Assembly (NCBI RefSeq): GCF_036053395.1
Contig: NZ_CP107942.1
Span: 9,270,001-9,334,000 of the forward strand
Reading direction: 5' to 3'
DNA from: Actinoplanes sp. NBC_00393
GTDB taxonomy: Bacteria; Actinomycetota; Actinomycetes; Mycobacteriales; Micromonosporaceae
Length of the DNA stretch: 64,000 nt
Shown here in pieces: positions 30,349 through 43,702 of this stretch. Numbering within the stretch: the stretch's first letter is position 1; the number at the start of each line of letters is the position of its first letter. The position numbers and the translations under genes are program-made. The notes beneath the pieces are model-generated. The model had not been told where the DNA came from and searched no databases. It was given only the letters and a program-made list of their open reading frames with translations.

Positions 30349-30431
30349 GCCCGGGTGGTGGAATGGCAGACACGGCCGCCTTAAAAGCGGCTGCCTGACA
30401 AGGCGTGCGGGTTCGAGACCCGCCCCGGGCA
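30349..30431 (+). tRNA. tRNA-Leu(UAA), bldA type
   Basis: 83-nt class II tRNA folded by hand: acceptor GCCCGGG/CCCGGGC (30349-30355 with 30424-30430), discriminator A at 30431, anticodon stem GCCGC/GCGGC with loop CTTAAAA and anticodon TAA at 30382-30384, a long variable arm (about 30392-30406) and T arm GCGGG-TTCGAGA-CCCGC. No CCA is encoded. It reads UUA, the rarest codon in such genomes; in Streptomyces the equivalent gene, bldA, gates development and secondary metabolism. Confidence 0.95.
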
Positions 30432-30592
30432 CGGTTCTCCGCGGTCGTGGCATCAAGCTGCGGCCGCGTTCGTGTTCGGGAGAGATCCCCTCTCAGTCTG
30501 CTCACAGCTTCGGGGTGCGGCAGGATGTGCTTCCAGCCCGTACCCTTGACCAACAGGCACAGCGCCTCAACCTCAAAGGGAGGCTGGAAACA

Positions 30593-40139: not shown

Positions 40140-41564
40140 GTGGAGATCGCCACCGAAACCGAGCGCAAGTACGACGTCCCCGAGACCTTCGAACTTCCCG
40201 AGCTGGCCGGTGCGGCCGGCATCGCCGGTGTCGGCGACGCCGAGATCCATGATCTCGACGCCACCTACTTCGACACCGCGGACCTGCGGTTGATGAAAAA
40301 CCGTCGGACACTTCGGCGGCGCACCGGCGGGCACGACGCGGGCTGGCATCTGAAAACGCCCGGGGACGGCTCCGGGCGTACCGAGCATCGGGTTTCCGGT
40401 GAGTCCGCAACGCCCCCCGACGAGCTGCTGGACCTGGTCCGGGTGATCGTCCGGCGGCATCCGGTGACGCCCGTCGCCCGCCTCTGCACCCACCGGGTGG
40501 AGACGCCGCTGCGCGACGCCGACGGCCGCACCCTGGCGCTTATCGCGCAGGATCAGGTGCGCGCCGAGTCGGACGGCGAACAGACCTCCTGGCAGGAGGT
40601 CGAGGTGGAGCTCGTCGACGGCGACATCGCGGTCCTTGACGCGGTCGAGCGGGCGCTGCTCGACGCCGGCGCCCGCCCGGCGGAGGGCCCGTCGAAGGTG
40701 GCGCGGGCGCTGGCCGGGCGTCTCGCCGCCGCGCAGCAGGAGAAGACCAAGGGCAAGATCAACCCCGTTTTCCGGTACGCGCGGGAGCAGCGCGACGCCA
40801 TCCTCGAACGCGACCCGGCCGCCCGTCGTGGCGAGGAGGAGGGCGTGCACAAGATGCGGGTCGCCACCCGGCGGCTGCGCAGCACGCTGAAGACCTACAA
40901 GCGCTGGTTCCCCGAGAACCAGGTGGGCGACGAGCTGCGCTGGCTGGCCCATACGCTCGGCGCGGTCCGCGACCCGCAGGTGCTGGAGGAGAAACTGCTG
41001 GCCGGGGTGGCCGACTCCGGGCCGGAGTTCGAGCCGGCCGCACAGCGGATCAAGTCGGGTCTGGAGCACCGGGTCGCGCAGGGCCGGGAGGAGTTGGCCG
41101 AGGCACTCGGTTCGGACCGCTACCTCGATCTGCTGGACCGCATCGACGAGCTGGTCGACCAGCCCACCTCGGCCGGCAACCCGGCGAAACGGACCCGGAA
41201 GGCCGTCCGCAAGGCGGACGACGAGCTGGACGCCGCGCTGGCGGGCGGGGTGGACGAGGAGATCCACGAGGCCCGCAAGAGCTACAAGAAGGCCCGGTAC
41301 GCGGTCGAGGTGATCGCCCCCGAGGTCGGTAAACCCGCCAAGCGTCTGGTGAAGGCGCTGACCGCCCTGCAGGACGGGCTCGGCGCCCATCAGGACTCCA
41401 CCGTCGCCCGCGAAGTGCTGCGCGAACTCGGTTCGGACAGTTTTCACTTCGGCGTGCTATACGGCAGGCAGGAACAAGTGGGTAAAGAGACGCTGGCAGC
41501 AGTGCCCGCGCTGGTGCGGGCCTCTCGGCGCAAGAAGGTACGGCGGTGGCTGGCGAAGACATGA
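40140..41564 (+). CDS. CYTH-CHAD domain protein (polyphosphate-associated)
   Basis: 474 residues: an N-terminal CYTH triphosphate tunnel domain (about 1-195, with ETERKYDVP carrying the ExExK motif) and a C-terminal CHAD helical domain (about 215-470; EGVHKMRVATRRLRSTLK and EIHEARKSYKKARYAVEV give the paired histidine/basic helices). CYTH enzymes hydrolyse triphosphate compounds and CHAD domains bind polyphosphate. The stop overlaps the ppk2 ATG (ATGA), linking it to polyphosphate metabolism. GTG 40140. Confidence 0.9.
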   Translation: MEIATETERKYDVPETFELPELAGAAGIAGVGDAEIHDLDATYFDTADLRLMKNRRTLRRRTGGHDAGWHLKTPGDGSGRTEHRVSGESATPPDELLDLVRVIVRRHPVTPVARLCTHRVETPLRDADGRTLALIAQDQVRAESDGEQTSWQEVEVELVDGDIAVLDAVERALLDAGARPAEGPSKVARALAGRLAAAQQEKTKGKINPVFRYAREQRDAILERDPAARRGEEEGVHKMRVATRRLRSTLKTYKRWFPENQVGDELRWLAHTLGAVRDPQVLEEKLLAGVADSGPEFEPAAQRIKSGLEHRVAQGREELAEALGSDRYLDLLDRIDELVDQPTSAGNPAKRTRKAVRKADDELDAALAGGVDEEIHEARKSYKKARYAVEVIAPEVGKPAKRLVKALTALQDGLGAHQDSTVAREVLRELGSDSFHFGVLYGRQEQVGKETLAAVPALVRASRRKKVRRWLAKT

Positions 41565-42514
41565 GCATCGACATCGACACTTCCTACGACGACACCACGA
41601 CGGGCCCCTATGACGGCCCGGTCGCCGAATTGGCCGGTTACCGGGTGGTGGACGACGAGGACGACGACCCGCGGCTGCTGAAGGCGGACGGCACCCCGGT
41701 CGACACCTGGCGCGAGGACTACCCGTACGACGAGCGGATGGACCGCACCGAGTACGACCACGACAAACGGCTGCTCCAGATCGAATTGCTGAAGCTGCAG
41801 AACTGGTGCAAGGACACCGGCGAGCGGTTGGTGATCCTCTTCGAGGGCCGGGACGCGGCCGGCAAGGGCGGCACCATCAAGCGGTTCATGGAGCATCTCA
41901 ATCCGCGCGGCGCCCGGGTGGTGGCCCTGGAGAAGCCGAACGAGAAGGAGAGCAGCCAGTGGTATTACCAGCGTTACATCAAGCACCTGCCGTCCGCCGG
42001 TGAGATCGTGCTCTTCGACCGGTCCTGGTACAACCGGGCCGGCGTCGAGCGGGTGATGGGCTTCTGCACCCGCGCGGAGTACCTGGAGTTCATGCGGCAG
42101 ACCCCGGAACTCGAGCGGATGCTCGTCCGGTCCGGCGTACATCTGGTGAAGTTCTGGTTCTCGGTGACCAGCGGCGAGCAGCGGACCCGGTTCGCGATCC
42201 GTCAGGTCGACCCGGTACGCCAGTGGAAGCTCTCCCCGATGGACCTGGAGTCCCTGGACAAGTGGGACGACTACACCGAGGCCAAGGAGGCGATGTTCTT
42301 CTACACGGACACCGCCGACGCCCCGTGGACCGTGGTGAAGAGCAACGACAAGAAGCGGGCCCGGCTCGCAGCGATGCGGCACGTGCTGCACCGGTTCGAT
42401 TACACCGGCAAGGATCCCGAGATCGTCGGCACGCCCGACCCGCTGATCGTGGGCCCCGCCTCGCTGGTGGTGGAAAGCACCGAAATGTCGCCCAGGGTAT
42501 TCCCGCGGCTGTAG
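41561..42514 (+). CDS. ppk2: Polyphosphate kinase 2 family protein
   Basis: 317-residue P-loop kinase transferring phosphate between polyphosphate and nucleotides. Walker A EGRDAAGKGG (95-104), Walker B/lid FDRSWYNRAGVERVMGF (152-168), and the core WKLSPMDLESLDKWDDYTEA. The N-terminal 55 residues are acidic (DDEDDDPRLL), a feature of the group that phosphorylates ADP or GDP. ATG 41561 overlaps the preceding stop; a GTG at 41546 is also possible. It works with the CYTH-CHAD partner and, in reverse, with Ppx at 20621. Confidence 0.92.
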   Translation: MSIDIDTSYDDTTTGPYDGPVAELAGYRVVDDEDDDPRLLKADGTPVDTWREDYPYDERMDRTEYDHDKRLLQIELLKLQNWCKDTGERLVILFEGRDAAGKGGTIKRFMEHLNPRGARVVALEKPNEKESSQWYYQRYIKHLPSAGEIVLFDRSWYNRAGVERVMGFCTRAEYLEFMRQTPELERMLVRSGVHLVKFWFSVTSGEQRTRFAIRQVDPVRQWKLSPMDLESLDKWDDYTEAKEAMFFYTDTADAPWTVVKSNDKKRARLAAMRHVLHRFDYTGKDPEIVGTPDPLIVGPASLVVESTEMSPRVFPRL

Positions 42515-42528
42515 TGATTCTAAAAGCG

Positions 42529-42558
42529 TTGGCAGGACGCCTCTCGGGTGGCTAACGT
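42529..42558 (+). promoter_or_regulatory. Promoter of the rnz leader
   Basis: TTGGCA (42529-42534) and TAACGT (42553-42558) with an 18-bp spacer. The start point would be about 42565, just before the Shine-Dalgarno sequence of the small leader ORF, giving a 5' leader of about 230 nt ahead of rnz. Confidence 0.55.
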
Positions 42559-42564
42559 GGCCGT

Positions 42565-42793
42565 ACACGTGAAGGGAGGTGGTCCGAAGTTGTATAGCAA
42601 CGGGACTCGTGAGGTGGCTGTCCGCTAGCCGCTGTCCTTGACAGCTTCGTTTGAAAACGTCGAGACCGTGTGGCAGCGGCCCGGCGAGTACCAGACAGCC
42701 ACCCGACCCCAGGGGATCCGGCCTTGTCCGACCGGACCACGCTCGTCAGCGAGCGTGGAAGTCCCCTGGGGTCGCTTCATATGGGGGTCCCAG
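42565..42793 (+). promoter_or_regulatory. Structured, attenuator-like 5' leader of rnz
   Basis: Elements in order: leader ORF; GGTGGCTGTC (42613-42622) complementary to GACAGCCACC (42694-42703); a second GCTGTC (42631-42636) that can pair with GACAGC at 42640-42645; then a large terminal structure, CGACCCCAGGGGA (42704-42716) with TCCCCTGGGGTCG (42762-42774), enclosing CCACGCTCG-TCAG-CGAGCGTGG (42737-42758). The two GCTGTC and two GACAGC blocks allow mutually exclusive pairings. I do not recognise a named riboswitch. Confidence 0.55.
42590..42628 (+). CDS. Leader peptide ORF upstream of rnz (12 codons)
   Basis: TTG start preceded by AAGGGAGGTGG (42572-42582), nearly a full complement of the 16S rRNA 3' end. 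Reads (M)YSNGTREVAVR then TAG. The codons GAG GTG GCT GTC form the left arm of a stem with 42694-42703, so ribosomes on this ORF would affect folding. Too short for homology; support is the exceptional ribosome-binding site and its fit with the RNA structure. Confidence 0.5.
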   Translation: MYSNGTREVAVR

Positions 42794-43702
42794 ATGCGTG
42801 AGCTCGTTGTGCTCGGCACGGCCAGCCAGGTGCCGACCCGGCACCGCAACCACAACGGCTACCTCCTGCGCTGGGACGACGAGGTGATCCTCTTCGACCC
42901 GGGTGAGGGCACCCAGCGGCAGATGCTGATGGCCGGCCTCGCCGTCACCCCGCTCAAGCGCATCTGCATCACCCACTTCCACGGCGACCACAGCCTCGGC
43001 CTGCCCGGCATCCTGCAGCGCATCTCGCTGGACCGGGTGCCGCATCCGGTGCACGTCCACTACCCGGCCGGCGGCCAGGAGTTCTACGACCGGCTCCGGC
43101 ACGCCACCAGCTACTGGGACAACGCCGAGATCGTCGCTTCGCCGGTCGGCGCCGGCTTCGTCGCGGAGACCTCCGCGGGGCGCCTCATCGCCCTGCCGCT
43201 CTGGCATTCCATCGAGGCGTACGGGTATCGCCTGGCCGAACCCGACTCCCGCCGCATGCTGCCCGCCCTGCTCGCCGAACACGGCATCAGCGGCCCGGCC
43301 GTCGGCGAGCTGCAGCGCACCGGCCGGCTCGGCGACGTCACACTCGAGCAGGTCAGCGCGGTCCGCCCCGGCCAGAGCTTCGCCTTCGTGATGGACACCG
43401 GCCTGTGCGACAACGTCTACGCCCTGGCCGACGGCGTCGACATGCTGGTGATCGAGTCGACGTTCCTCGCCGAGGACGCCGCGATGGCAGCGCAGGTCGG
43501 CCACCTCACGGCCGGCCAGGCCGCCATGGTGGCGCGCGAGTCCGGCGTACGGATGCTGGTCCTGACCCATTTCTCTCAGCGCTACCAGGACGCCTCGCGT
43601 TTCCTCGACGAGGCCCGCAAGGAGTTCGACGGCCCGATAGTGATCGCCGAGGACCTGCTCCGCGTCCCGATCCCGCCCCGGCGGCTACCGTCGACTCCAT
43701 GA
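42794..43702 (+). CDS. rnz: Ribonuclease Z-like metallo-beta-lactamase fold protein
   Basis: 302 residues of the tRNase Z (tRNA 3' endonuclease) type: zinc motif [10 protein letters not shown] (60-69), preceded by [12 protein letters not shown] as in RNase Z; later ligands in VMDTGLCDN and LTHFSQRY. It would trim tRNA 3' ends before CCA addition, relevant here because the window's tRNA lacks an encoded CCA. ATG 42794 follows GGGGG at 6 nt; the frame is open further upstream but runs through the leader structure. ATGA overlap with the next gene. Confidence 0.9.

Follow-up and report, generated by a model that had tools for sequence, protein, structure and literature searches.

Ribosome-mediated attenuators and upstream-ORF leaders of the trp, his, erm and topAI type carry a short ORF that overlaps alternative pairings, and dual-function sRNAs such as SgrS combine a structured small RNA and a short coding sequence. 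The RNA family RF02471, to which the element described here belongs, resembles both. It differs from the attenuators in having no fixed downstream gene, a promoter-like element of its own and no conserved peptide or codon run, and from the SgrS type in that its peptide is not conserved whereas its complement to 16S rRNA is. Long Shine-Dalgarno (SD) pairing is shared with the extended SD sites and STAR repeats of Staphylococcus aureus, and the recruitment of ribosomes by RNA outside annotated genes, which those repeats exemplify, is close to what we propose below (PMC13009471). S. aureus belongs to another phylum, however, and the available part of that description contains no conserved pseudoknotted RNA with two SD sequences. 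A possible analogy is offered by Ms1 and 6S RNA, RNAs that bind a core gene-expression machine, although the partner of Ms1, according to the accessible text, is RNA polymerase (PMC4191392), whereas that of RF02471 would be the ribosome.

Identity, context and transcription of the RNA

The window, the whole 64-kb stretch of DNA that was analysed, contains on its forward strand (42565-42780) a match to RF02471 (Ms_IGR-5, "Actinobacteria sRNA") that scores 101.7 bits in cmscan, the cut-off being 45. The match is complete over model positions 1-184 and lies above the gathering score, which makes the window RNA a full-length member of the family. The initial annotation had recognised no named RNA family here and had described an attenuator-like leader of rnz; its segment starts at 42565, the first position of the Rfam match, and the parts it listed (ORF, SD sequence, GCTGTC and GACAGC blocks, terminal stem) are all present. 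RF02471 itself is already known. It was reportedly described originally in M. smegmatis in 2013, and that description may hold parts of the anatomy presented here. Rfam files it under 'Gene; sRNA' with no assigned function, and its structure line lacks stem P1 and the pseudoknot; a search of open PubMed Central papers turned up no mention of two SDs, of a complement to 16S, of an ORF conserved independently of its peptide, or of a pseudoknot. The features discussed below are as follows.

42529..42558, forward strand: promoter candidate, TTGGCA (42529-42534), an 18-nt spacer and TAACGT (42553-42558), from the sequence and relatives
42565..42780, forward strand: whole RNA, RF02471 Ms_IGR-5, from cmscan and the fold
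42566..42611, forward strand: stem P1, 42566-42569 with 42608-42611, paired in 98.0% of cells, double changes at 3/4 pairs
42571..42585, forward strand: SD1, GAAGGGAGGTGGTCC, a 15-nt complement of the 16S rRNA 3' end, from a genome-wide pattern search and relatives
42590..42628, forward strand: ORF TTG...TAG of 12 codons, MYSNGTREVAVR, stop (TAG 42626-42628) kept in relatives
42603..42729, forward strand: pseudoknot, GGAC (42603-42606) with GUCC at 42726-42729 in the loop of the 3' hairpin, 4/4 pairs
42611..42616, forward strand: SD2, GAGGTG, within the ORF, its G 15 nt ahead of the stop codon, a distance kept in relatives
42613..42703, forward strand: stem P4, 42613-42622 with 42694-42703, from covariation and fold
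42686..42692, forward strand: conserved linker GAGTACC, consensus GAATCCC in alignment A1
42705..42773, forward strand: 3' hairpin, probable transcript end, followed by no T run
42794..43702, forward strand: rnz (ORF; gene name from the initial annotation), 13 nt after the RNA

At an E value of 0.001 RF02471 matches 70 of 396 genomes sampled from the phylum, 249 of 394 from the class and 53 of 61 from the family of the window. A model of the 5' domain (R1) matches 158/396 phylum genomes at E 0.01; it was built partly from genomes that it later matched, and its weakest matches may be due to chance. No R1 match was found in the other 238/396, some of which are incomplete, and this absence from many sampled genomes counts against the engagement with ribosomes that we propose below. 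The Rfam model missed three of ten genomes that contain the SD1-SD2 pattern (L180, L213 and L216, with Solirubrobacterales or Patulibacter names). A scan of named genomes for this pattern gave at least 120 matches and, among the 80 listed, 78 carry Actinomycetota names. The other two, contigs labelled Acidobacteria (L154 and L188; labels as given), carry the RNA, and RF02471 matches both genomes, which are either mislabelled MAGs or a sign of spread beyond the phylum. Most genomes with a match have one copy of the RNA; two matches were seen in G799 (side by side), G466, G700 and G224 (both strong, E about 4e-13, on different contigs). A viral origin was discarded, as the single match among viral contigs (L272) has no stop codon at the conserved position and looks like a product of chance.

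A strict sigma-70 consensus scan of window positions 42480-42830 returned 0 sites, so that the promoter candidate of the window is drawn from a reading of the sequence and from conservation in relatives. There, a -10-like element (TA...T) lies upstream of the RNA in 237/272 loci (shuffles 14.2 +/- 3.6) and a TTG-like -35 in 180/272 (shuffles 1.3); a promoter-like element of its own, as looked for in a trans-acting sRNA, is thus present in the relatives. According to the accessible text of one study, the homologue in S. avermitilis is an sRNA transcription unit with mapped ends, its 3' end included, and is classed as an sRNA unit and not as cis-regulatory (PMC8780764); a homologue in S. lividans is listed with RNA-seq support in the available part of another (PMC8079986). 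Both agree with a separate transcript. Separate expression as a small RNA is therefore reported for homologues, and by its sequence the window RNA is a candidate for the same.

These data would also suit an ordinary trans-acting sRNA in which base-pairing to mRNA does the work, perhaps via the CACC-containing strand of P4, and in which SD1, ORF and SD2 only set exposure or decay. The Rfam type, the separate transcript in S. avermitilis (PMC8780764, as far as its accessible text goes) and a structured RNA present once in most genomes with a match all favour it, but it leaves unexplained why start, frame and stop are kept and why SD1 is complementary to 16S rRNA over at least 15 nt. We regard it as rather unlikely, if a serious competitor.

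Control of rnz, a tRNA-processing enzyme in the initial annotation, had been seen there as the purpose of the element. Within a named Rfam family this does not agree with synteny: in tblastn searches with the Rnz of the window, rnz was found downstream in only 2 of 83 loci of the phylum and class samples (the downstream DNA covered ranging from 6 nt to about 1.5 kb), both from the window's own family. A further 150 loci gave 20, counting the window's own site (L273), a repeat (L151) of L115, a weak partial match (L242, 34% identity) and one whose Rnz match begins only at residue 136 (L150). Among the fetched loci of the window's family, rnz lies downstream in 14/30. Taken over the 83 loci, the nearest downstream ORF is on the opposite strand in 55 and on the same strand in 26, and none was found in 2, the ORF calls being approximate and wrong for rnz in the window itself. 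An rnz leader as a family trait is thereby rejected. An effect confined to those Micromonosporaceae in which rnz directly follows the RNA, added to the general role of the RNA, is a different matter: the 14 loci, the T-rich hairpin at 42631-42645 and the mere 13 nt before rnz in the window, which leave little room for an intervening promoter, argue for attenuation there, while the element is kept without rnz in 81/83 loci and in 16/30 of the family, and its S. avermitilis homologue, in the part of the report available, is not cis-regulatory (PMC8780764). A local effect on rnz is possible; as an account of attenuation we think it improbable.

Among ten proteins scanned from other neighbouring genes are a class IV aminotransferase, encoded upstream (L066), and, from the opposite strand, an NAD-dependent DNA ligase (L032). 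In the window, the two ORFs upstream of the RNA (40140-42514) presumably encode a CYTH-CHAD protein and a polyphosphate kinase 2, judging from motifs, and the only tRNA found in the 64 kb is a tRNA-Leu with anticodon TAA at 30349-30432.

Two Shine-Dalgarno sequences and a short ORF

SD1 exceeds the near-perfect Shine-Dalgarno sequence that the initial annotation had seen, since all of its 15 nt can pair with the 3' end of 16S rRNA. When the searchable part of the 11.4-Mb genome was scanned with this 15-nt pattern (G-U allowed), SD1 was the sole match, and the reversed control pattern gave 2. The 16S 3'-end sequence used was found in 8 of 20 relatives, including 3 from the window's genus, and was not seen in the searchable part of the window's own genome. 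Unbroken 16S complementarity of at least 15 nt is present in 252 of 253 elements (L272 omitted) and of at least 16 nt in 249 of them, G-U allowed; by the same rule, a smaller set of 123 elements, aligned on GGAGG, contains 122 with an uninterrupted run of 16 or more 16S-pairing bases. That such a complement might be unique in every genome had to be rejected: over 60 class genomes a slightly narrower pattern gave 72 matches vs 69 for its reverse, many of the 72 lying at the RNA itself. Such sites elsewhere thus arise at about the chance rate, and the constant one is the SD1 of this RNA. The invariance of SD1 is by itself no proof of pairing with 16S, although its complementarity suggests that it would do so in vivo.

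The complementarity extends over the 16S 3' end up to GGAUC, which we take to lie beside helix 45. This, and the weak start codons described below, would also fit a partner of the 16S 3' end in maturation or quality control of 30S subunits, with the ORF as a trial translation for new subunits, but such an explanation is wholly inferential and we judge it very unlikely.

The leader ORF of 12 codons noted in the initial annotation runs, as described there, from TTG at 42590 to TAG at 42626-42628. Its conservation in relatives is extensive, in place of the loss that would have spoken against a functional leader: of 254 distinct elements, 249 have a stop codon that begins 15 nt downstream from the G of GAGGTG (TAG 215, TGA 23, TAA 11), a count that omits L273 and L151 and in which 271 elements were collapsed to 254, L272 included. 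The loop after SD1 contains an in-frame ATG, GTG or TTG in 214/249 elements (26% of shuffled loops), and all 249 have either one of these or CTG, ATT, ATC, ATA or ACG; shuffled loops reach 53% by this wider definition, which counts against a part for the ribosome. In the 35 elements with no canonical start the most upstream near-cognate codon stands 2-3 nt after SD1, so judging by sequence the ORF of some elements can start at CTG, ATT, ATC or ACG. The frame is intact in the 249 although the spacing between SD1 and SD2 varies, usually lying between 36 and 44 nt and ranging overall from 29 to 54 nt. ORF length ranges from 10 to 15 codons, once 19, and is 12 in 185 of the 236/273 elements with an assigned start; the other 37 comprise the 35 near-cognate ones, where an internal GTG ended the search, plus L123 and L297. 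L123 is an otherwise normal element with TGG at the stop position, through which the frame runs on, and L297 was called by the script as lacking an ORF; both count against selection for visits by ribosomes. The divergent lineages retrieved with the broader 5'-domain model keep the ORF, in some of them with another frame over SD2. In three small-genome relatives (L057, L058 and L061) the RNA is shorter and its ORF crosses SD2 in a different frame; two of them, L057 and L058, also have a hairpin with T-rich DNA behind it.

The encoded peptides share little, as illustrated by MYSNGTREVAVR in the window and by MKPGTQRATVEVMSR, MHSTSGGGSS and MLKTSGGDCR, and among 17 peptides from 18 chosen elements we found no shared regulatory codon run of the kind expected in an amino-acid attenuator. 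A conserved functional peptide, as in a dual-function sRNA, was rejected on the grounds that both the peptides and the frame over SD2 differ between lineages. Since the ORF is kept while these change, its start, length and stop appear to be under selection, unlike the peptide, and comparison of the sequences suggests that selection seems to act on translation itself. The conserved start, frame and stop, together with the EV found in many peptides, could still be taken to mark a messenger for a functional micro-peptide; yet the residues in common are encoded at positions whose bases are set by P1, the pseudoknot and SD2, and the peptides otherwise differ, so that we consider a micro-peptide scarcely credible.

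SD2 stands inside the ORF at a constant distance from its end. When the stop codon occupies the A site, the GAGG of SD2 and the P-site codon are 8 nt apart, which is ordinary SD spacing, so a terminating ribosome would meet a Shine-Dalgarno sequence in place. Ribosome reads on the homologues in M. abscessus and M. smegmatis appear in the accessible part of a published study, whose authors caution there that non-coding RNAs can yield such reads without being translated (PMC4974804).

Fold and pseudoknot

Folding goes well beyond that of shuffled sequences. The whole 216 nt reach -112.3 kcal/mol (z -6.05), a value matched by 0 of 200 shuffles, and 42613-42703 (z -4.16) and 42704-42780 (z -5.59) each exceed shuffles separately; the initial 64 nt on their own show no such advantage (z 0.28). 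P4 covers SD2 and encloses P3 (about 42623-42685), which contains the stop codon. P4, P3 and the 3' hairpin, the large terminal stem placed before the rnz start by the initial annotation, are mutually compatible in the minimum-energy fold.

The mutually exclusive pairings proposed earlier are supported in a different form. The GCTGTC blocks (42617 and 42631) and the GACAGC blocks (42640 and 42694) exist as described. The pairing of 42617 with 42694 is part of the conserved P4, and the hairpin 42631-42645, whose sequence is seen in much of the window's family only, overlaps P3 and competes with P3 alone. This hairpin is the sole terminator-like match of a consensus scan (1 found, 0.2 expected). 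In the window a T-rich stretch follows it, and the block of the P3 loop around CTGTCCTTGACAG is nearly letter-for-letter the same in much of the family, P3 varying elsewhere. The choice supported is that of GGAC (42603-42606), which can pair with the GUCC of the SD1 arm (42582-42585) or with that of the 3' hairpin loop (42726-42729), the latter forming a pseudoknot absent from the initial annotation. In 50 sequences the 3'-loop partner is full in 50/50 and the SD1-side partner in 45/50. In L028 and L030 changes in the GGAC strand are matched in the 3' loop but not on the SD1 side, which is still 16S-complementary, and in divergent lineages the two strands of the pseudoknot have changed together (TGTGACC/GGTCACA, CGCGACC/GGTCGCG, TGTGACG/CGTCACA).

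Covariation was counted in fixed columns. From 123 elements 108 were kept, and alignment A1 uses 50 of these; A2 holds 68 of the 117 offered, and A3 consists of 19 chosen divergent rows. P1, P4 and the pseudoknot taken together have standard pairs in 92.3% of cells of the 50 sequences, and double-change cells number 56 there vs 11.3 +/- 3.0 when shuffled and 2 to 16 when slid; the 19 divergent sequences give 65 vs 27.4 +/- 4.0 and 3 to 13, respectively. Relatedness can inflate these counts, and the structure was derived from the same sequences. Further pair types in the 19 sequences are not above shuffles (149/500 reach the observed number). In the 16S-complement set the P1 counts are the best of four registers, and in the partner counts for GGAC given above those for the pseudoknot and P2 are the better of two. 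With A1 as input RNAalifold returned P4 but missed both P1 and the pseudoknot. When the longest complement within 140 nt was used to test the pseudoknot (160/268 elements), the excess was small, 5.81 vs 5.50 (sd 0.07); the fixed-column counts are the better test. A lack of compensatory changes would have told against the initial annotation as much as loss of the ORF, and that objection fails because the stems covary and the ORF is kept. From this comparison of sequences, ORF and structure appear to be real and selected.

A possible ribosome client in Actinomycetota

A long landing site for ribosomes and a tiny ORF that is kept make the RNA look made for visits by ribosomes rather than for control of its neighbours. 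We propose that it is a stand-alone, separately transcribed RF02471 RNA whose job depends on ribosome engagement, a proposal that we hold to be about as probable as its opposite. Its anatomy and the selection on it come from sequence comparison, and the mechanism that follows is what we infer from them.

From what is generally known of initiation, a 30S subunit would dock on SD1 by a long duplex, which in some lineages could be strong enough for initiation at CTG, ATT, ATC or ACG. Docking would occupy the GUCC arm of SD1 and leave GGAC for the loop of the 3' hairpin. The ribosome would then read 10-15 codons, opening the pseudoknot, P1, P4 and P3, and would end with SD2 about 8 nt before the P-site codon, where the terminating ribosome or its 30S subunit could be held. 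The fold of the RNA, its lifetime or an exposed CACC strand would in this way report the frequency of translation. Its most likely use would be to act in trans and to sense or buffer the free 30S subunits and the activity of initiation. This last is the weakest step, and that the RNA senses or buffers initiation capacity is only faintly suggested by the anatomy.

Put at its fullest, the proposal is that RF02471 is neither a message nor an ordinary sRNA but a dedicated client of the ribosome, one that captures 30S subunits by a duplex of at least 15 nt, allows initiation at weak start codons, holds the subunits at the stop codon by means of SD2 and uses its pseudoknot to report or limit initiation capacity; this we offer tentatively, as possible and short of probable. 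An sRNA of Actinomycetota, streptomycetes and mycobacteria included, has so far been filed with no function, and its anatomy points to the ribosome. If we are right, selection on this bacterial RNA would favour its translation and not the product it encodes, the RNA would be accessible to toeprinting and to single-codon changes, and, were it indeed a dedicated client, it would be a phylum-wide sensor, sink or test message for 30S subunits.
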